From Desulfobulbus oligotrophicus (lineage in GTDB: Bacteria > Desulfobacterota > Desulfobulbia > Desulfobulbales > Desulfobulbaceae): a DNA stretch of 64,000 nt. Shown here in pieces: positions 33,340-57,465 of the stretch. Each line of letters opens with the position of its first letter. Position 1 is the first letter of the stretch. A program made the position numbers and the translations under genes. The stretch lies in NCBI RefSeq assembly GCF_016446285.1, contig NZ_CP054140.1, forward strand, positions 353,501-417,500, in the 5' to 3' direction. The notes beneath the pieces were generated by a model that saw only the letters and a program-made list of their open reading frames with translations, ran no database searches and had not been told where the DNA came from.

Positions 33340-33466
33340 GGTGTTTGTGGAGCTGGTTCGCCCTTCTTTTAAGATTAAAAAAAGATTAAAGATGATTAGA
33401 GGGCTCGGAACCTCCTGAAAAAGCCTTTTATTTACAACTATTTGCGTGCGAAAAAAATTGAGCAAC
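33340..33466. other. AT-rich stretch beside the iterons, candidate origin-melting region
   Basis: This run between the sigma-like gene and the first iteron has AAGATTAAAAAAAGATTAAA and other A/T tracts. Iteron plasmids have such a region for DNA unwinding. No perfect DnaA box (TTATCCACA) was found. Confidence 0.45.
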
Positions 33467-33595
33467 TGTGATTGCTATGCCCCCAAAACGTGAGTGCTAT
33501 GCCCCCTGTTTTGTGAGTGCTATGCCCCCTGGTGTGAGTGCTATGCCCTCTGAGTGTGAGTGCTATGCCCCCCAAGTGTGAGTGCTATGCCCCCT
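33467..33595. repeat. Six direct-repeat iterons, 22-bp period (putative oriV)
   Basis: Six copies of GTGAGTGCTATGCCCCCT or close variants start at about 33468, 33490, 33513, 33534, 33556 and 33578. The steps are 21-23 bp, two helical turns, so all copies lie on one face of the DNA. The first copy has GTGATT and the fourth CCCTCT. Direct repeats of this size next to a TrfA-like initiator are the hallmark of an iteron origin. The last copy overlaps the 3' end of the initiator gene. Confidence 0.88.
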
Positions 33596-37230: not shown

Positions 37231-37562
37231 AGGGTGTTTCCTCTCGCGGTGGCTGAGACTCTCGAAACCACTGCTAAATCACGATACGCCACTGCCAATT
37301 CCGGTAATAACTGGGTATCGCCCACAATAAGGGCCTCTTTCTTTTTTCTACTCCAACCCTGCACTTGTTTCTCACGATAAAAAGCTTCATCAACTCTCGA
37401 ATACTCTTCCCAATAAACAAGAGTTACTGGCAGCCGTTTTTTGGTGTGGCTCGCCCCATTACCAGATTGATGCTGAATCAATCGAAACTCCAAATTCCTT
37501 GTACTTCCAGTGTAATAGCTACCATCAGAACACTTTAGAATGTACATAAAGCCACCACTCAT
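37188..37562 (-). CDS. GIY-YIG nuclease-domain protein between two palindromes
   Basis: 124 residues with the GIY-YIG domain MYILKCSDGSYYTGSTRNLE, the HQSGNGASHTK segment and the conserved Glu in FYREKQVQGWSRKKKEALI. The single-domain size is that of UPF0213/YhbQ-type proteins. After about residue 98 the frame runs into palindrome A, giving a tail (SRVSATARGNTLLPSR...) of repeat origin. Palindrome B lies directly before the start. The whole looks like a repeat-gene-repeat cassette. The cellular role is unknown. Confidence 0.82.
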   Translation of the reverse strand: MSGGFMYILKCSDGSYYTGSTRNLEFRLIQHQSGNGASHTKKRLPVTLVYWEEYSRVDEAFYREKQVQGWSRKKKEALIVGDTQLLPELAVAYRDLAVVSRVSATARGNTLLPSRTSGNSKKRQ

Positions 37563-46405: not shown

Positions 46406-46727
46406 TGTTGAACCATTTTTTGATTTTTCTTTACAGATTCCTGTTGCAGACAGGCTGTCCCGCCCTCCCAGAAGAAGCAGGCGGGGCATGCCGTCCGGCT
46501 CAGAGCTTTACATTAACATATGGGCAGATATAACAAGGCTGAAATCACCTCGAACAGGCTTGCTTTCCCTGCCCTGTCTGGTACTGGTATCCTGTGCGGT
46601 TAGTTCGGTCAGGCAATTTCAAGGGTTTTAAGCGCAGTCTTCCTTCTTCTAATTTCATAATTCTGCCATATAACTTCAGAAATTTCTTGAAAATTAAAAG
46701 ACAACATGAACCAAACAAGGCACCAGT

Positions 46728-46950
46728 CATTCCGCGACTGTCGTGGAGTCCATGTCTGGCGCATCAAGGATGATGGATTCTGCGACTACGGCCGCTGCGC
46801 GTCCTTCGCGCAGAATGACCGTTGCCGGGTGACAAGGTGATGTCTGAGCTAGGTTGATGTCATTCCGCGCAGAATGACCGTTGCAGGTGACGGGGGGGAT
46901 GTTTGAGTCATATTGATGTCATTCCGCGCGCAGTCGCGGAATCCAGTTGA
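46728..46950 (+). repeat. Gene-less palindromic units leading into the GIY-YIG island
   Basis: A P1 palindrome (46728-46751) is followed by a 23-bp spacer, the P2 palindrome (46775-46816) and a linker. Next is a shortened hybrid at 46861-46879, where the left arm of P1 (CATTCCGCG) is fused to the right arm of P2 (CAGAATGACC). Another linker leads to the P1 that opens the first GIY-YIG unit at 46921. Confidence 0.8.
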
Positions 46951-46965
46951 ATGCAGGAACGCCAC

Positions 46966-47340
46966 ATGGAAGATAAACATGCCTATACCTATATTCTTGC
47001 CAGCAAACGAAATGGAACACTTTACACCGGGGTGACCAGCAATCTGGAGCGCCGTATGTATGAACATAAAAACAAAACACACCCTGAAAGCTTCAGCGCA
47101 AAATATACTGTCAATCTACTGGTTTGGTACGAATCTGGAGAAGATATTCAGGCTGCCATCGAATTGGAGAAGAAAATTAAAAACAGAAGTAGAGCCTGGA
47201 AAATTGCTTTGATTGAGAAAAACAATCCTGATTGGAAAGATCTGAGTTTGGACTTTGTGGATTCTGCGACTACGGCCGCTGCGCGTCCTTCGTGCAGAAT
47301 GACTGGTGCAGGTGACAAGGTGATATCTGAGCCAGATTGA
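46966..47340 (+). CDS. GIY-YIG nuclease-domain protein, unit 1
   Basis: About 124 residues from the ATG after AGGAAC. GIY-YIG features: YTYILASKRNGTLYTGVTSNLERRMYEHKN (GIY as YIL, YIG as YTG), the Arg in ERR and the Glu in AIELEKKIKNRSRAWKIALIE. The domain ends about DWKDLSLD. The remaining about 30 residues (VDSATTAAARPSCRMTGAG...) are translated from palindrome P2. Single-domain GIY-YIG proteins can act as nicking or homing-type nucleases. The function here is unknown. Confidence 0.88.
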   Translation: MEDKHAYTYILASKRNGTLYTGVTSNLERRMYEHKNKTHPESFSAKYTVNLLVWYESGEDIQAAIELEKKIKNRSRAWKIALIEKNNPDWKDLSLDFVDSATTAAARPSCRMTGAGDKVISEPD

Positions 47341-47389
47341 TGTCATTCCGCGCGTAGTCGCGGAATCCAGTTTTATGCAGGGACGCCAT

Positions 47390-47740
47390 ATGGAAGATAA
47401 ACACGCCTATACCTATATTCTTGCCAGCAAACGAAATGGAACACTTTACACCGGGGTGACCAGCAATCTGGAGCGCCGTATGTATGAACATAAAAACAAA
47501 ACACACCCTGAAAGCTTCAGCGCAAAATATACTGTCAATCTACTGGTTTGGTACGAATCTGGAGAAGATATTCAGGCTGCCATCGAATTGGAGAAGAAAA
47601 TTAAAAACAGAAGTAGAGCCTGGAAAATTGCTTTGATTGAGAAAAACAATCCCGATTGGAAAGATCTGAGTTTGGATTGTATGGATTCTGCGACTACGGC
47701 CGCTGCGCGTCCTTCGCGCAGAATGACTGGTGCCGGGTGA
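47390..47740 (+). CDS. GIY-YIG nuclease-domain protein, unit 2
   Basis: 116 residues, nearly identical to unit 1; the differences seen are at the end (LDCMDSATT instead of LDFVDSATT) and silent changes such as AATCCC for AATCCT. The P2-encoded tail ends at TGAG. AGGGA precedes the start. Identical length and frame to unit 3, so the duplication is recent. Confidence 0.88.
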   Translation: MEDKHAYTYILASKRNGTLYTGVTSNLERRMYEHKNKTHPESFSAKYTVNLLVWYESGEDIQAAIELEKKIKNRSRAWKIALIEKNNPDWKDLSLDCMDSATTAAARPSRRMTGAG

Positions 47741-47816
47741 CGAGGGGTGATATCTGAGCCAGATTGATGTCATTCCGCGCGTAGTCGCGGAATCCAGTTT
47801 TATGCAGGGACGCCAT

Positions 47817-48167
47817 ATGGAAGATAAACACGCCTATACCTATATTCTTGCCAGCAAACGAAATGGAACACTTTACACCGGGGTGACCAGCAATCTGGAG
47901 CGCCGTATGTATGAACATAAAAACAAAACACACCCTGAAAGCTTCAGCGCAAAATATACTGTCAATCTACTGGTTTGGTACGAATCTGGAGAAGATATTC
48001 AGGCTGCCATCGAATTGGAGAAGAAAATTAAAAACAGAAGTAGAGCCTGGAAAATTGCTTTGATTGAGAAAAACAATCCCGATTGGAAAGATCTGAGTTT
48101 GGATTGTATGGATTCTGCGACTACGGCCGCTGCGCGTCCTTCGCGCAGAATGACTGGTGCCGGGTGA
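47817..48167 (+). CDS. GIY-YIG nuclease-domain protein, unit 3
   Basis: Same 116-residue protein as unit 2, with the same tail derived from palindrome P2. No frameshift. Its preservation as an intact frame in all three copies argues for selection or for very recent amplification. Confidence 0.88.
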   Translation: MEDKHAYTYILASKRNGTLYTGVTSNLERRMYEHKNKTHPESFSAKYTVNLLVWYESGEDIQAAIELEKKIKNRSRAWKIALIEKNNPDWKDLSLDCMDSATTAAARPSRRMTGAG

Positions 48168-48241
48168 CGAGGGGTGATATCTGAGCCAGATTGATGTCAT
48201 TCCGCGCGTAGTCGCGGAATCCAGTTGAATGCAGGAGCGTT

Positions 48242-48268
48242 ATATGGAAGATAAACATGCCTCCACCT
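48242..48268 (+). pseudogene. Truncated fourth GIY-YIG copy
   Basis: After the fourth P1, the start MEDKHAST is followed by a stop and unrelated sequence. It marks the broken right edge of the tandem array. Confidence 0.8.
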
Positions 48269-48400
48269 AAAGTCGCAGTTTGGCACGCGCTTTCAACCTC
48301 TGGCAAAGATGCTCCGCGCTGCAATATGGCCAGGTCCGGCACAAACCTGTTTCATCTGCATGCTCACCACCACTGAAACACCATAAACGATCACACCTCT

Positions 48401-48943
48401 ATGAAAACACCGATAAAAATTAAAAACTCCTGGAGCTACGGCCTGGTCTTTTTCTTCCTTCTTTTCATTATCAGTGCGGTATTTTTTGAGATCTGGGAAT
48501 TTTCCAATCTGCCCGTCCAGTTCTTCGGGGCAATGTTCGGCGTGGTCATCTCTGCGATCATCACCCTGTTTCTGCTGCAGGGTCAGTCCAGGCAGGAGAT
48601 GAAGAGAGAGGCCTTTGTCAAAATCTTTGAACAGAAGATCACAGTGTATTCCGAGTTTACCGAAAAGATGTGGGACATGCTCCACAATGAAAAAATAAAC
48701 GAAGAAGGGCTGCTTGACCTGCGTACAATCTGTTTCGACAAACTGGTTTTTTATCTGAACAACGAACAGATAAAAAACGTCCGCACCTATGTGGAAAAGA
48801 TAGACGAGAAAAACCTTGACGCCACACTGGAAGCCGTCAGTGAGATTACTGAACTGCTTCAGAATGACCTGAACACCGATGATGAAAAACAACATCTGGA
48901 ATCCGAAGAACTGGTGCTGTTGTTCAAGGCCTTTAACCGCTGA
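48401..48943 (+). CDS. Membrane protein of unknown function
   Basis: 180 residues. Two N-terminal membrane helices (YGLVFFFLLFIISAVFFEIW and FGAMFGVVISAIITLFLLQ) lead into a soluble helical domain of about 120 residues. The family was not recognised. It resembles the general layout of two-helix membrane sensors with a cytoplasmic coiled coil. It lies between the GIY-YIG array and the ABC genes on the opposite strand to the latter. Confidence 0.6.
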   Translation: MKTPIKIKNSWSYGLVFFFLLFIISAVFFEIWEFSNLPVQFFGAMFGVVISAIITLFLLQGQSRQEMKREAFVKIFEQKITVYSEFTEKMWDMLHNEKINEEGLLDLRTICFDKLVFYLNNEQIKNVRTYVEKIDEKNLDATLEAVSEITELLQNDLNTDDEKQHLESEELVLLFKAFNR

Positions 48944-48982
48944 TACTGTACCTGGAAAAGGTTGCCGCCGCACCTGAACTGT

Positions 48983-49735
48983 TCATTCTTCTTTTGTGTA
49001 CTCCTGCCGCAGACAGGCGCGCAGCTGTTCTTCCACCGGCAGCAGCTCCTCCCCGGAACGTCTTCTCGGCCGGGCCACGGTCACCGGGATATCGAGCAGA
49101 ACACCCCTTTGCCCCAAAAGGATGATGCGATCACCCAGATAAGCAGCCTCAGCCACACTGTGGGTCACGTAGAGAATCGTCTGTCCGGCATGGGCATGCA
49201 CGCGCAGCAACTCATCCTGCATCCGTTCCCGACTGTGGGCATCCAGGGCACTGAAGGGCTCATCCATCAGCAGCACCCGCGAAGCCAGCGCCAATACCCG
49301 GGCAATGGCCACCCGCTGCCGCATCCCACCGGACAGCCCACAGGGATATTGGTGGGCCTGGTCTGCCAATCCCATAAATGCGAGGTATTCGCTGGTCGTC
49401 TCTTTAAGCTGTTGCCCCCGGACTCCCCGCTGTTTCAGGGCAAAGGCAACATTGCCATAGGCGGTCAGCCAGGGGAAAAGCGTGGCATCCTGAAAAACAA
49501 CACCACACTCCGGTCCCGGCCCCTGGACAGGGTTGCCTTCAAACAGTACGCTGCCTGAAGCCGGAAACACAAATCCCGCCGCCAGATTCAGCAGGGTGGT
49601 CTTACCGCAGCCGGACGCGCCCAGCACACAGACCAGTTCACCCGCTGCAATGTGCAGATCAAGACCAGCAAAGACCGGCACCACAGACCTGTCTTTTTGT
49701 GTATAGGATTTACAGACCCGGACAAAGCGGATCAT
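48983..49735 (-). CDS. ABC transporter ATPase, SsuB/TauB type
   Basis: 250 residues with Walker A GASGCGKTTLL (about 40), signature LSGGMRQRVAIARVLAL (about 135), Walker B VLLMDEPFSALD (about 155) and H-loop VTHSVAEAAYL. Energises the permease encoded just upstream; their genes overlap by 4 bp. Confidence 0.95.
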   Translation of the reverse strand: MIRFVRVCKSYTQKDRSVVPVFAGLDLHIAAGELVCVLGASGCGKTTLLNLAAGFVFPASGSVLFEGNPVQGPGPECGVVFQDATLFPWLTAYGNVAFALKQRGVRGQQLKETTSEYLAFMGLADQAHQYPCGLSGGMRQRVAIARVLALASRVLLMDEPFSALDAHSRERMQDELLRVHAHAGQTILYVTHSVAEAAYLGDRIILLGQRGVLLDIPVTVARPRRRSGEELLPVEEQLRACLRQEYTKEE

Positions 49736-50529
49736 GATCTTTCCAGGGTCGCTGTCCAGCGTGCAGTGGTCTTCTGCTCCAAAGGATACAGAACAAGCCG
49801 TTCCGCCACAAGACCAATGGCACAGATCACCCCGATACAGGCAAAGGCCGCCGGATAGTCAAGGGACCAGCGAGCCTGAATAATGGAATAGCCCAGGCCC
49901 GTGCCTGTACCGACCACCATTTCCGCAGCAACCAGGACCCGCCATCCGGTACCCAGGCCAATGCGCAGACCGCTGATGATCGAGGGCAGAGCAGCGGGAA
50001 GCAGGACCTGAAAAAAGAGCGTCCAGTGGCCCGCACCCATCATCTGAGCGGCACGGATAAGATACACATCCACCCCTCTGATCCCATGGGCAACGCTGAT
50101 GGCAATGGGCGCAAAGGAGGCCACCGCAATCATGAACACGGTTGCCGGCTCTCCGATACCAAAGAGCAAAATGGCCACCGGAATCCAGGCCAGCCCCGGA
50201 ATCATCAGCAAAACCTGCGGAATACCAGTGGTGATTGTGGCAAACCAAGGGACGCCGCCAGCCAGAAGACCGAAGCTGACACCGGAAACCGCTGCAATAC
50301 TGAAGCCCGCCAGCCACCGTTGCAGGCTTTCCTGAATATGAAGCCACAGGGTACTGCCGGCCAGCGGCGCACTGTTGAGCAGTGCCCACAGGCGCTCACC
50401 GGTCTGCCGGGCAGTCGGGAAATCCACTCCCCGAAAGGCGTGCACCCCCCACGCGATCAGGGACCACACCGCCAACACAGCAAGAATCGGTATCAACCGG
50501 CGCAAACAGAGCTGTAGAAAATACGGCAT
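49732..50529 (-). CDS. ABC transporter permease, SsuC/TauC type
   Basis: About 265 residues from ATG 50529 (50571 is an alternative). About six membrane helices; the EAA loop region AAQMMGAGHWTLFFQVLLPAALPSIISGLRIGLGTGWRVLVAAEM is typical. Pairs with the ATPase and, by family, with the NMT1/SsuA-type binding protein at 45458-46405. Confidence 0.93.
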   Translation of the reverse strand: MPYFLQLCLRRLIPILAVLAVWSLIAWGVHAFRGVDFPTARQTGERLWALLNSAPLAGSTLWLHIQESLQRWLAGFSIAAVSGVSFGLLAGGVPWFATITTGIPQVLLMIPGLAWIPVAILLFGIGEPATVFMIAVASFAPIAISVAHGIRGVDVYLIRAAQMMGAGHWTLFFQVLLPAALPSIISGLRIGLGTGWRVLVAAEMVVGTGTGLGYSIIQARWSLDYPAAFACIGVICAIGLVAERLVLYPLEQKTTARWTATLERS

Positions 50530-50661
50530 AATGCTCTCAACACCTCTCTGGGCTGAAGGAGTATCCATCACAGCCGCAACGTGGCCAGGAAGACCAGTCT
50601 GCCGGTCTGCTCAATTCCGTCCTGGAGACCCGATCTCCGCTGCCTGGCGAACGTCTCCGAC

Positions 50662-50735
50662 CTATTGGGTCAACTGATCAGCCTGCTGCACCCAGCCGCC
50701 GCCCATGGCCTTATACACGGTAATCAGAGCCGGCT
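50662..50735 (-). pseudogene. C-terminal fragment of a NodT-family outer-membrane efflux protein
   Basis: The minus strand reads ALITVYKAMGGGWVQQADQL and two more residues before a stop at 50662-50664. That is the typical extreme C-terminus of NodT/OprM-type efflux lipoproteins. Upstream of it the sequence breaks off at the repeat array. It pairs with the N-terminal piece at 51490-51625. Confidence 0.65.
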
Positions 50736-50756
50736 ATCTTTCCGGCCGTGAAAATT

Positions 50757-51490
50757 GGCGCAGGCGTGTTTATCTTCCATGTGGCGTTCCTGCATTCAAC
50801 TGGATTCCGCGGCTACGCGCGGAATGACATCAATCTGACTCAGACATCCCCCCGTCACCGACAACAGTCATTCTGCGCGAAGGACGCACAGCGGCCGTAG
50901 TCGCTGAATCCATCATCCTTGATGCGCCAAACATGGACTCTGCAACTGCACACGGAATGACATCAACCTGACTCAAACATCACCCCTCGTCACCGACAAC
51001 AGTCATTCTGCGCGAAGGACGCACAGCGGCCGTAGTCGCAGAATCCATCATCCTTGATGCGCCAAACATGGATTCCGCGGCTACGCGCGGAATGACATCA
51101 ATTTGGCTCATACATCCCCCCCGTCACCGGCACCAGTCATTCTGCGCGAAGGACGCTCAGCGGCCGTAGTCGCAAAATCCATCATCCTTGATGCGCCAAA
51201 CATGGATTCCGCAACTGCACACGGAATGACATCAACCTAAATCAGACATCACCCCTCGTCACCGACAACAGTCATTCTGCGCGAAGGACGCACAGCGGCC
51301 GTAGTCGCAGAATCCATCATCCTTGATGCGCCAAACATGGATTCCGCGGCTACGCGCGGAATGACATCAACCTAAATCAGACATTCCCCCCGTCACCGAC
51401 AACAGTCATTCTGCGCGAAGGACGCTCAGCGGCCGTAGTCGCAGAATCCATCATCCTTGATGCGCCAGACATGGACTCCGTGACTGCACT
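50757..51490 (-). repeat. Array of five gene-less palindromic units, inverted relative to the GIY-YIG island
   Basis: Five P2 palindromes (start at about 50869, 51004, 51138, 51273, 51407) alternate with P1 palindromes. The repeat period is 134-135 bp. P1 alternates between two versions, GGCTACGCGCGG and CAACTGCACACGG, so the true period is a 269-bp dimer. The left end (50757-50801) is the start of a GIY-YIG copy (MEDKHAC) cut off after seven codons. In each unit a 25-bp spacer replaces the gene. Confidence 0.88.
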
Positions 51491-51625
51491 AACCGAACGA
51501 TACACCAGGGGAAAAAAATCAACCCGCACAATACCATACTGGCCGGAAAACTCCTCAATCCGTGCCGTGGCAACCAGATCAACCAGCACCGGATCGTTGA
51601 ACTGGAGCCACCATCTGCTGTCGGC
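51490..51625 (-). pseudogene. N-terminal fragment of the NodT-family efflux protein
   Basis: The minus strand reads RWWLQFNDPVLVDLVATARI, then EEFSGQYGIVRVDFFPLV. The WW-F-DP-L-L pattern and the ARxEExxxQxG helix are standard in NodT/OprM proteins. A TAG lies just before it and the frame runs into the repeat array, so it is dead. The upper part of the gene is not recognisable. Confidence 0.6.
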
Positions 51626-51639
51626 CTACTCCCTGCGCT

Positions 51640-52207
51640 CACTGGTGGCAACAATCTGCACGCCACCATTACCTAACTACCTGGATTGCATGCGTATTCT
51701 ACGCGCATCTTTTTCATCCTTTGCCCTGCCGACCGTTTTTCTCTGCAAAACTTTTTATAAAAGAATTGTATTCAACGCCCAATCATATTAGATGTTTTCG
51801 TTTTAAAGTATGGCCTTTAAACATCTGAATACGCGATCACTCACAAAAATGAAACGCAGTATCGTACCAGAATAGTCTGTTGACCACTGGTCTCGTCAGC
51901 AGAAGGTCGCACCCCGCACGTGCCCGCGTTCCCATTCTTCTACAGCAATCAAGCCGCCGGCACAGGTAACACCGTTCCCTGTCAGTACGACCAGCCTGCC
52001 CCGGGCAGCACAGATTGCACACAACACGAAATACAAGAAATGACTTCAAGTTACAAAAACGAAATCAAGATCGCCCACCCCCTCCTGTCTGCTGCTCAAC
52101 AACCCCCGGAAAAACCACCGCTCAACAAATCGAGTCTTTTGGCACACCGAATGCATAAGTGGAAACCATGGCACTCGTTTTATACAACCATTGGTAAGGT
52201 GAATATT
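51640..52207 (+). other. 568-bp stretch upstream of the PKD protein, no gene seen
   Basis: The reading frame of the PKD protein is open back to 51920, but that part lacks any domain and precedes the signal peptide. A 106-codon frame (51471-51791) overlaps the efflux fragment and is not supported. The promoter for the secreted protein should lie here. Confidence 0.45.
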
Positions 52208-54927: not shown

Positions 54928-56088
54928 ATGAAACAACAGACTGCAACCCGCAGTAAAGCAATGAAAATAGTTTATAAAGGTATCCTGTTAACCGGGCTAA
55001 TCCCATGTGTATCATTTGCCGCACCTGCAGTGACCGGTACAAGCGGTTCCCTGTCAACAGGGAATACAGCCGTTATCTCCGGCAGTGGTTTCGGTACACA
55101 CACCATGCAGGTTGAATCGTTACAAAACTACATTGAGGCAGGTACCGTAGGACAGAAGTTCGCAAAAACCGGATGGACACAGTCTGATTGGACCTGGGCT
55201 AGCCCGATGTATGCAACAGATGCCTCCCATTCCGGAAACAAATCATTAAAATGTACGGTGAACTCCAACAACAGTTACAACTGTGCCTTTGCTTATATAA
55301 TGCCGAACCCGGTTAAAGCAGGAAACAAATTCTATGCGTCATGGTGGGTCAAGTACAATGGCGACACGAATGGTCAGTGGAAGATGTTCAAGTTGAAGCA
55401 AAAAGAAACCATTATAGATAACCCCATGGAGTTTGTCTTTTTCAACTGGTTTTCTATGCAACAACAAGCACATGGAGCTGATTCGAATAATGTAGGATAC
55501 GGTATTTGGCCCAATGAAAACACGATCCCGAAAGGTGATAATAAATGGTATCGTTTCGAATTTGAAATGAATGCTGGAACAACAGGTTCCTCAAATGGCA
55601 GCTTTACAATCAGGACCACAACCGACACGGGAACTATTTACGAAGAACGCAGCACTGGTAATAGAACACACGCTGCTAATGCTGATGAATGGCGATATGC
55701 TATCTGGCAAAACTATATCGGTAATGGTATCAACAGCGCGGTCATCCATTTTGATGATATCTACGTACAAACAGGTACTCAGGCACGTGTTGAGTTGTGC
55801 TCTGGTAGCACCTGGGCAAAGCGAGGTAAATGTGAGATTCAAATACCGACATCGTGGAACGCATCTTCAATTCCAGTAACAGTCAACACTGGTAATTTCT
55901 CCTCTGGATCATCTGCCTACCTCTATGTTGTTGATTCCAGCGGAACAGCTAATAGCTCCGGCTACCAGGTAAGTGTTGGAGGAACATCGTCAGGAGGAGG
56001 AACGTCGTCAGGGGGAGGAACGTCAACACCAGATCCAAGTCCGGCTTCAGCTCCAGCTCCGCAATTGAGCTCCATAACAGTACAGTAA
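54928..56088 (+). CDS. Secreted carbohydrate-associated protein, paralogue 1
   Basis: About 386 residues from ATG 54928 (AAAAGGTG upstream). Signal ends CVSFA. An IPT/TIG-like start (PAVTGTSGSLSTGNTAVISG) is followed by a jelly-roll-like domain with Trp-rich strands (YASWWVKYNGDTNGQWKMFK). It ends with a Gly/Ser and Pro/Ala linker (SSGGGTSSGGGTSTPDPSPA). The domain resembles concanavalin-like carbohydrate-binding folds; this is inference. The family was not firmly recognised. Confidence 0.72.
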   Translation: MKQQTATRSKAMKIVYKGILLTGLIPCVSFAAPAVTGTSGSLSTGNTAVISGSGFGTHTMQVESLQNYIEAGTVGQKFAKTGWTQSDWTWASPMYATDASHSGNKSLKCTVNSNNSYNCAFAYIMPNPVKAGNKFYASWWVKYNGDTNGQWKMFKLKQKETIIDNPMEFVFFNWFSMQQQAHGADSNNVGYGIWPNENTIPKGDNKWYRFEFEMNAGTTGSSNGSFTIRTTTDTGTIYEERSTGNRTHAANADEWRYAIWQNYIGNGINSAVIHFDDIYVQTGTQARVELCSGSTWAKRGKCEIQIPTSWNASSIPVTVNTGNFSSGSSAYLYVVDSSGTANSSGYQVSVGGTSSGGGTSSGGGTSTPDPSPASAPAPQLSSITVQ

Positions 56089-56319: not shown

Positions 56320-57465
56320 ATGAAAAAAATTAAACTTTTAAGCTTAGCCCTTCCAACCCTTCTGATGGTTGCCGGCACTTCTTCAGCTGTCTGGGCAGCA
56401 CCTGCAGTGACTGGGGCAAGCGGTTCCCTGTCAACAGGGAATACAGCCATTATCTCCGGCAGTGGCTTCGGTACACACACCATGCAGGTTGAATCGCTGC
56501 AACCTGCTATTGAGGCAGGAACTGTAGGACAGAAGTTCGCAAAAACCGGATGGACACAGTCTGATTGGACCTGGGCTAGCCCGATGTATGCAACAGATGC
56601 CTCCCATTCCGGAAACAAATCATTAAAATGTACGGTGAACTCCAACAACAGTTACAACTGTGCCTTTGCTTATATAATGCCGAACCCGGTTAAAGCAGGG
56701 AACAAATTCTATGCGTCATGGTGGGTCAAGTACAATGGCGATACGAATGGTCAGTGGAAGATGTTCAAGTTGAAGCAAAAAGAAACCATTATGGACAACC
56801 CCATGGAGTTTGTCTTTTTCAACTGGTTTGCGTCTCAGCAGATAGTAGGTGGAGCTGACTCCAATAACGTTGAATACGGCATCTGGCCTCAACAAAACAC
56901 GATCCCAAAAGGGGATAATAAATGGTATCGTCTAGAGTTCGAAATGAACGCTGGAACAACAGGTTCCTCGAATGGCAGCTTTACAATCAGGACCACAACT
57001 GATACGGGGACTATTTACGAAGAACGCAGCACTGGTAATAGAACACACGCTGCTAATGCTGATGAGTGGCGATACGCTATCTGGCAGAATTATATCGGTA
57101 ATGGTATCAACAGCGCAGTCATCCATTTTGATGATATCTACGTACAAACAGGTACTCAGGCACGTGTTGAGTTGTGTTCTGGCAGCACCTGGGCAAAGCG
57201 GGGTAAATGTGAGATTCAAATACCGACATCGTGGAACGCATCTTCAATTCCAGTAACAGTCAACACTGGTAATTTCTCCTCTGGATCATCTGCCTACCTC
57301 TATGTTGTTGATTCCAGCGGAACCGCTAATAGTTCCGGCTACCAGGTAAGTGTTGGAGGAACATCGTCAGGAGGAGGAACATCGTCAGGAGGAGGAACAT
57401 CAACACCAGATCCGAGTCCGGCTTCAGCTCCAGCTCCGCAATTAAACTCCATAACAGCACAGTAA
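56320..57465 (+). CDS. Secreted carbohydrate-associated protein, paralogue 2
   Basis: 381 residues. It has its own signal peptide (IKLLSLALPTLLMVAGTSSAVWA), then the same domains as the gene before it. Long blocks are identical in DNA, but residues about 168-200 differ (FASQQIVGG against FSMQQQAHG, WPQQNT against WPNENT). Ribosome-binding site AGAGG. The 231-bp spacer between the two genes shows no gene. Confidence 0.75.
   Translation: MKKIKLLSLALPTLLMVAGTSSAVWAAPAVTGASGSLSTGNTAIISGSGFGTHTMQVESLQPAIEAGTVGQKFAKTGWTQSDWTWASPMYATDASHSGNKSLKCTVNSNNSYNCAFAYIMPNPVKAGNKFYASWWVKYNGDTNGQWKMFKLKQKETIMDNPMEFVFFNWFASQQIVGGADSNNVEYGIWPQQNTIPKGDNKWYRLEFEMNAGTTGSSNGSFTIRTTTDTGTIYEERSTGNRTHAANADEWRYAIWQNYIGNGINSAVIHFDDIYVQTGTQARVELCSGSTWAKRGKCEIQIPTSWNASSIPVTVNTGNFSSGSSAYLYVVDSSGTANSSGYQVSVGGTSSGGGTSSGGGTSTPDPSPASAPAPQLNSITAQ

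Follow-up and report, generated by a model that had tools for sequence, protein, structure and literature searches.

The 64,000-nt window analysed here, positions 353,501-417,500 of Desulfobulbus oligotrophicus NZ_CP054140.1, contains tandem copies of a small GIY-YIG nuclease gene enclosed by two palindromes, P1 and P2, and a second array of units in which the same palindromes enclose a short spacer. We propose that these units probably belong to a mobile repeat system resembling REPINs, the inverted pairs of repetitive extragenic palindromic (REP) sequences, and that a nuclease of ~95 residues, similar to Slx1, serves this system in place of the REP-associated tyrosine transposase (RAYT). Such palindromes accompany homologous genes in many bacteria, and their class matches the clade of the protein. 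Gene-less pairs of near-fixed architecture are dispersed in two genomes examined, and we found both occupied and empty alleles as well as collapsed forms, in which the outer palindrome halves are joined. We infer that the nuclease carries out the cutting and the transposition. All coordinates are window-based unless marked otherwise.

The original prediction described three intact tandem GIY-YIG genes with a 427-bp period between P1 and P2, and a gene-less array with the same two palindromes. Both descriptions were confirmed. The left island (46726-48270) holds three open frames of 129, 121 and 121 residues from the first ATG, each located between P1 and P2. Copies 2 and 3 are identical across 300 nt, copy 1 is 96% identical, and Tandem Repeats Finder (TRF) gave a period of 427 bp with 3.3 copies. 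The right array (50801-51490) consists of five gene-less units in the orientation opposite to that of the left island. The predicted unit size of 134 bp is nearly correct: the units measure 134 or 135 bp, and the best-scoring TRF period is 269 bp, which outscores the single-unit period because every second P1 copy is degenerate. The spacer, previously given as 25 bp, is 21 bp when measured from CCA to TGG. The division into a gene-bearing left side and a gene-less right side holds overall but is not strict, since the left island also contains a gene-less unit and a collapsed unit and the right array opens with a truncated gene 5' end (Table 1).

P1 has the form GTCATTCCGCG-loop-CGCGGAATCCA and P2 the form GTCATTCTGCG-long loop-CGCAGAATCCA; both are asymmetric. 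Each can be written as GTC-[AT...AT]-CCA, and in both the GTC tag faces out of the unit and the CCA tail faces in. Therefore, the unit is an inverted head-to-head pair with a gene or a short spacer in its middle. In DNA folding predictions exactly the terminal GTC and CCA of P1 and P2 are left unpaired. The P1 fold has an 8-bp ATTCCGCG stem, the CCA tail and a 6-nt loop. The P2 fold has a stem of at least 8 bp followed by an imperfect inner stem, and its long loop holds an inner hairpin. The whole gene-less unit at 51002-51096 folds as a single long hairpin. Folding z-scores are -4.1 for one P1, -3.5 for one P2 and -5.5 for this unit. Together with the 33 exact palindromes found in the 3.10-Mb, single-contig genome, as compared to none for the reversed pattern, they indicate that the palindromes are not due to chance. 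The base preceding GTC varies, being A or G at P2 in the window, with CGTC, TGTC or CCTC found in relatives. The gene of the unit matches the GIY-YIG family PF01541, and no Y1 (HUH) transposase gene is located within the unit. A scan of 46500-51700 with Rfam gave no match, and phage records gave just one weak match.

The association of gene and palindromes extends far beyond the window. Close homologues were gathered from 55 relatives, 394 genomes of the phylum and 20 named contigs, and their flanks were then retrieved. Of the 119 loci, 118 were used (one was too short); the copies in the D. oligotrophicus genome were left out, as were L066 and L077, which share the record of the retained L100, and the fragment L079. 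Outside this genome, 110 matches reached E <= 1e-15, and we examined the flanks of 93 of them. The detector required GTC, a 5-bp stem starting with A and ending with T, and then C plus a pyrimidine, with the tag pointing outward and within 200 bp. The 5-bp rule was adopted after an 8-bp rule had missed the GTCATTGCGA class, as noticed by eye. An outward-tagged palindrome is present on at least one side in 102 of the 118 close homologues and on both sides in 66, as compared to 44 and 6 of 590 control intervals placed at random in the same loci. Weaker GIY-YIG homologues with 29-40% identity (27 of 29 used; two had no local match or flank) have one on a single side in 1/27 and on both sides in 0/27. 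Five alternative tags were found at 0-2 of the 118 loci on either side. With the 8-bp rule, palindromes on both sides were detected in 47/118 homologues, 2/590 intervals and 0/27 weak homologues. Thus the refuting possibility that homologues elsewhere are never flanked by palindromes is contradicted by the data, and the counts rule out P1/P2 as a mere local oddity.

We also read 12 named records under a wider rule, in which a CTC tag and a distance of 250 bp were allowed, and found palindromes at 9. They are present on both sides in Neisseria gonorrhoeae, Azospirillum, Shinella, Sphingobium, Planktothrix, Rhizobium CIAT894 and Neorhizobium, and on one side in S. meliloti and Aeromonas. In Rhizobium L51/94 and Novosphingobium, palindromes seen by eye are farther out or variant in form. 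In Azospirillum and N. gonorrhoeae the gene sits between complete pairs, not within one pair.

The class of the palindromes, defined by the first five stem bases, is equal on the left and right arms in 45 of the 66 loci (shuffled mean 18.6, maximum 30). Mapped onto the protein tree, the arm class requires 18 changes, where shuffled labels need 41 on average and at least 35 (n=90; 90 of 102 labelled rows, labels occurring fewer than four times being excluded). When each family is represented by a single locus (n=46), 13-15 changes are required, against shuffled means of 20-24 and minima of 17-22. At the level of whole genomes, at least 10 TC-type palindromes are present in 46/84 genomes with the gene and 40/310 without it (odds ratio 8.2, p 2e-14). 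At least 10 palindromes of the ATTGC type are present in 10/11 genomes with an ATTGC-class gene, 3/9 with an ATTCC-class gene and 1/20 without the gene, in a comparison whose genomes were chosen after the flanking, genome-count and tree results were known. The palindromes were also considered as terminators only, an idea that we rejected, since they come in pairs, carry a tag and match the protein in class.

Dispersed gene-less units were studied in genomes G402 (84 palindromes, 41 of them listed) and G130 (82, all listed). Neighbouring palindromes within 70 bp are always head-to-head (27/27 pairs in G130 and 13/13 listed in G402), and a count by hand among the palindromes listed for phylum genomes gave 20/22. 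The spacer is 48-54 bp in 23/27 pairs of G130 and 26-29 bp in all 13 listed pairs of G402. A short palindrome is joined to a long one in 25/27 and 12/13 listed pairs, respectively, as is also the rule for the window's P1 and P2. When seven G130 units from separate loci are aligned, similarity ends at the tags or within ~10 bp of them. Across twelve G402 units it fades over ~50 bases to the left and ~20 to the right; the G402 unit may therefore be longer. Like the window, G130 has a tandem array, of three units, immediately next to the gene. G402 has a single gene match to its 84 palindromes: where the system is dispersed, units without the gene are the more numerous.

Occupied and empty alleles were found at several sites. 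In Azospirillum lipoferum 4B, a pair-gene-pair arrangement is located between sufB and sufC. In A. oryzae and A. ramasamyi ~530 bp are absent at this position and the flanks are ~96% identical; in all 11 other Azospirillum records listed, these two included, the span is 987-1084 bp as compared to 1574 bp. The Azospirillum junctions are not base-clean. In Sphingobium, the interval between fnrL and a response regulator gene is occupied in seven records and ~350 bp shorter in four others. The empty allele of Sphingobium TomTYG64 carries one symmetric palindrome that equals the outer halves of the gene-flanking palindromes in the occupied TomTYG46 plus one base, and the shorter TomTYG74 allele carries a mutated version of it. 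An element of ~600 bp is present four times in genome G422; its copies are 88-92% identical and have additional outer inverted repeats. At one of these sites the element is absent between G-runs in G436 and G437 (flanks 87 and 86% identical); for a second copy (L143), relatives match the right flank only. Six collapsed forms are present in the D. oligotrophicus genome, in the window (46859-46878) and in two of four other stretches; one shuffle gave none. These alleles in Azospirillum, Sphingobium and G436/G437 overturn the objection that relatives might have no empty sites. The proposed relation of an autonomous element to its miniature derivatives is supported, and the flanking counts, dispersed units and empty alleles indicate that it is not local.

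In the window, the left island and an adjoining 180-residue frame split ABC-transporter-like genes, the three counterparts of which are adjacent in a relative, G014 (names assigned by eye). The copies in the D. oligotrophicus genome are confined to islands, and the Rhizobium sites, described below, are not clean. Two R. phaseoli plasmids, compared by eye over 40 kb in gene tables, showed no unit-sized difference. As a separate observation, the core of one gene-less unit appears inverted between Rhizobium species at one shared site (L221 versus L225 and L226), as if flipped between its palindromes.

The protein matches PF01541 with 60.1 bits, well above the gathering cut-off of 22.6. Among 118 alignment rows, 12 of which contain internal stops, Y8 is kept in 97%, Y19 in 100%, G21 in 100%, R29 in 98%, E67 in 97% and N86 in 100%. 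We take Y, Y, R, E and N to be the catalytic residues of the GIY-YIG superfamily. The ratio of nonsynonymous to synonymous substitution rates (dN/dS) is 0.07-0.56 in eight of ten within-genome copy pairs and not computable in one; between a window copy and the copy at 2174 kb it is 0.21. These substitution patterns point to constraint at the protein level in most copy pairs tested. A predicted model with a mean pLDDT (predicted local distance difference test score) of 80.9 is nearest in fold to Slx1 (Z 7.2), with HIGLE at Z 6.7, I-TevI and UvrC at 5.7 and unrelated rows from 3.6 down. The best Foldseek match is 1zg2 (E 0.0014). The TIGR01453 score is 19.4 bits and does not reach the cut-off of 56.05. 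PADLOC gave no match, and the candidate identity of a listed defence protein was rejected on that ground. Slx1 cuts and resolves branched DNA, which, judging from the predicted fold, makes hairpin or cruciform cutting by the GIY-YIG protein plausible.

These features can be combined in a working mechanism. The unit consists of head-to-head asymmetric palindromes, the short P1 and the long P2, enclosing the nuclease gene or a short spacer. The palindromes would extrude as hairpins, which the nuclease would nick or resolve near the tag or the hairpin centre. Repair would remove the unit and leave the collapsed form, or the unit would be copied elsewhere. Gene-less units could exploit the enzyme in trans. 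The tandem arrays in the window may then have grown via recombination between repeated units.

A number of known systems share part of these features. REPIN/RAYT systems (TnpA-REP; described in part in PMC3733652) are alike in their inverted hairpin pairs, a single palindrome-flanked partner gene and many dispersed gene-less pairs. In contrast, the RAYT enzyme belongs to the Y1/HUH transposases and is paired with the tag GTAG, whereas here we find a GIY-YIG nuclease and the tag GTC. Slx1 and other structure-selective GIY-YIG nucleases share the fold and the catalytic residues, but the window-type protein has ~95 residues and is located inside a repeat-bounded unit. Slx1 has a further domain, which is absent at this size. 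UPF0213 and other small GIY-YIG proteins (1zg2, 1ywl) are similar in size and fold, but the weaker homologues with 29-40% identity lack such flanking palindromes. GIY-YIG homing endonucleases such as I-TevI share the catalytic domain fold and a gene presence that varies between strains at a site; they differ from the small single-domain protein described here, with its dispersed gene-less units and its low TIGR01453 score. Classical insertion sequences and miniature inverted-repeat transposable elements have terminal inverted repeats and a target-site duplication; the units described here end in inverted palindromes, outer inverted repeats are present on both sides in 5/119 loci, and no duplication was resolved at the empty sites read. 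These outer repeats are of the CATARGCGYTAACTTAA type (CATARGCG-type), point outward, lie outside the palindromes and are often at G/C runs. They were seen at L135, L137 and L144 (G422), L132 (G062) and L163 (G157), that is, in three genomes with differing palindrome classes.

Several observations weigh against a REPIN-like system driven by the nuclease. No palindrome was detected at 16 of the 118 homologues, several of which have decayed palindromes visible by eye, and in Photobacterium none was found near the gene, under the wider rule or by eye. Palindrome-rich genomes (at least 10) without a detected gene number 40/310, with up to 241 palindromes in G150; these exceptions leave a true gap in the correlation, for which lost genes or assembly gaps are possible explanations. 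G294 has no ATTGC palindrome. Physical linkage alone could suffice for the co-variation of arm and protein, yet the genome-wide counts agree as well. All fold scores are under Z 8, and one copy pair has a dN/dS of 1.70, on 2.5 synonymous changes. No target-site duplication was resolved at the Azospirillum, Sphingobium or G436/G437 sites. At the G422 site, four other relatives have 240-430 bp of other DNA. The Rhizobium hutH-hutG and permease/binding-protein sites are polymorphic, but the entire intergenic stretch differs and there is no clean insertion. Tandem growth requires recombination only. In D. oligotrophicus, all 33 exact palindromes are confined to seven islands, the two arrays in the window counting as one. 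A GIY-YIG search of this genome found 19 places, namely the three window copies, one more open copy at 2174 kb, a weak homologue at 391 kb and, for the rest, fragments or stop-bearing copies. With few islands and mostly broken gene copies, local amplification and decay therefore dominate in this genome. P1/P2 are nevertheless not peculiar to the window, as a sceptic of the original prediction might have supposed, given the seven islands and the same kind of palindromes beside homologues in many bacteria.

Two side observations concern the islands. A second repeat of ~140 bp (CCCTTGAAATTG...CACCAGG), whole or partial, borders several of them by eye, at window ~46570-46725 and at C1:76.0, 82.3, 1605.6 and 2174.3 kb (L050, L051, L053), which suggests duplication of larger blocks. 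A weak GIY-YIG homologue outside the islands, with 33% identity and a 131-residue open frame, is located at 391 kb, corresponding to window 37320-37553 (minus strand).

It is possible, though unlikely, that the gene is a parasite similar to homing endonucleases: the nuclease would cut existing palindromes and repair would copy the gene into the cut, so that the palindromes are targets and not cargo. The symmetric palindrome in the empty TomTYG64 allele and its mutated version in TomTYG74 favor such a reading, as do the six similar solo forms in the D. oligotrophicus genome and the presence of I-TevI among the fold matches. However, the empty sites in Azospirillum, G436 and G437 have no solo palindrome like that of TomTYG64. 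Homing thus explains what is seen in Sphingobium but not the empty sites elsewhere, and the solo forms are equally explicable as deletion products. It also does not account for gene-less short-plus-long pairs with a near-constant spacer that are dispersed without the gene, and the TIGR01453 score stays far below its cut-off.

Quite unlikely, in our judgement, is that another enzyme, such as a Y1/RAYT transposase, or host functions move the palindromes, with the GIY-YIG protein as a hairpin-processing factor that is carried along with them or keeps them in check. Its Slx1-like fold would suit this role, and of the 19 genomes tested, a set made up almost entirely of palindrome-rich ones, 18 have Y1_Tnp (RAYT-clan) matches, which also counts against the nuclease as the driver. 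A role for RAYT is weakened because G064, with 188 TC-type palindromes and two GIY-YIG matches, has no Y1_Tnp match. Moreover, the GIY-YIG gene sits between class-matched palindromes, the two Y1 matches in the D. oligotrophicus genome (C1:118 kb and 212 kb) are away from the islands, and the tag is GTC, not GTAG. Local duplication and recombination alone, with ordinary intergenic repeats beside a chance gene and arrays formed by unequal crossing-over, are likely the cause of tandem growth here, where the tandem copies 2 and 3 are identical and all exact palindromes are found in few islands, several of them bordered by the second repeat, but are highly improbable and largely refuted as a full account, since the association recurs in unrelated genomes far over controls, together with empty alleles and dispersed units.

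The nuclease-served, REPIN-like system that we favor may be related to known repeats. In the passages of Di Nocera 2013 (PMC3733652) that describe them, CGTC REPs have the tag CGTC, often TGTC or CCTC, 8-9-bp stems starting from AT, CCA tails and loops of 4-5 nt with exceptions noted, and are mostly head-to-head dimers. These passages include Neisseria dRS3/NIME and Rickettsia RPE-4/RPE-6 among them, and report them, as of 2013, without association to transposase genes, while the GTAG superfamily has RAYT. A 2009 review (PMC3898611) describes dRS3 inside NIME arrays. The palindromes in the window are alike in the unpaired GTC tag, the 8-bp AT-starting stem, the CCA tail and the head-to-head pairing, and dRS3-type repeats in N. 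gonorrhoeae and CCTC-type repeats in Rhizobium are located near the homologous gene. They are unlike in their loops, 6 nt in P1 and longer in P2, and in the variable base before GTC. Given the loop length, we call the window repeats CGTC-like and not members of families 1-4. The rhizobial RIME elements may also be of the CGTC type. Among the matches listed from open-licence PMC papers, seen in part and with bioRxiv outside the scope, none links GIY-YIG proteins to REP-like repeats or dRS3. Separately, an unannotated GIY-YIG frame lies beside dRS3-type repeats in N. gonorrhoeae (L205, ~2490-2775) and is a candidate partner of NIME arrays.

We tentatively suggest, with somewhat less than even confidence, that CGTC-type REPs (Neisseria dRS3, rhizobial and Rickettsia) all belong, as non-autonomous units, to one ancient element family that a GIY-YIG nuclease mobilises, with the whole unit extruding as a cruciform that is cut and rejoined at the palindrome centres. 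If true, this would be a transposition chemistry distinct from that of HUH, DDE, serine and tyrosine enzymes. Few short repeats are as common in bacteria as REPs, and the enzyme behind the spread of a large short-repeat family may be a GIY-YIG nuclease. The CGTC REP superfamily, reported in 2013 to lack a partner, would gain a specific candidate enzyme, with the palindrome class tied to the protein clade. The occupied and empty alleles and the collapsed forms make the question of the partner enzyme directly testable. The system also provides a genomic context for many small genes annotated just as 'GIY-YIG nuclease family protein'.

Table 1. Palindromes, genes and units of the left island and the right array.
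Feature	Coordinates	Strand	Description
Gene-less unit	46726..46819	.	P1-like palindrome 46726-46752, spacer, P2 46774-46819 minus
Collapsed unit ('scar')	46859..46878	.	outer P1 half fused to outer P2 half, usual linkers either side
P1 of unit 1	46918..46945	+	GTC, 8-bp stem, CCA
GIY-YIG gene copy 1	46951..47340	+	129 residues; conserved part from 46969; C-terminal tail runs into P2
P2 of unit 1	47258..47303	-	single arm mismatch
P1 of unit 2	47342..47369	+	palindrome search
GIY-YIG gene copy 2	47375..47740	+	121 residues; PF01541 60.1 bits
P2 of unit 2	47682..47727	-	palindrome search
P1 of unit 3	47769..47796	+	palindrome search
GIY-YIG gene copy 3	47802..48167	+	121 residues; translation identical to copy 2
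P2 of unit 3	48109..48154	-	palindrome search
P1 (48196-48223), then truncated gene 5' end	48196..48270	+	
Truncated GIY-YIG 5' end, start of right array	50739..50800	-	
P1	50801..50828	-	palindrome search
Gene-less unit	50867..50961	.	P2 50867-50912, degenerate P1 50934-50961
Intact gene-less unit	51002..51096	.	P2 51002-51047, spacer, P1 51069-51096 minus
Gene-less unit, degenerate P2	51136..51230	.	P2 51136-51181, P1 51203-51230
Intact gene-less unit	51271..51365	.	P2 51271-51316, P1 51338-51365 minus
Last gene-less unit	51405..51490	.	P2 51405-51450, decayed P1

The 180-residue frame that adjoins the left island inside the split ABC-type cluster (48401-48943, plus strand) has a weak STM3941-family match below the cut-off. 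Elsewhere in the window, a tandem array with periods of 22/44 bp is located at 33463-33595, and two similar 18-bp repeat tracts are located at 55978-56024 and 57355-57401. On Planktothrix agardhii plasmid p1 (L232, 698-982), a GIY-YIG unit has a type IIL restriction-modification gene on one side and the DISARM gene drmA on the other.

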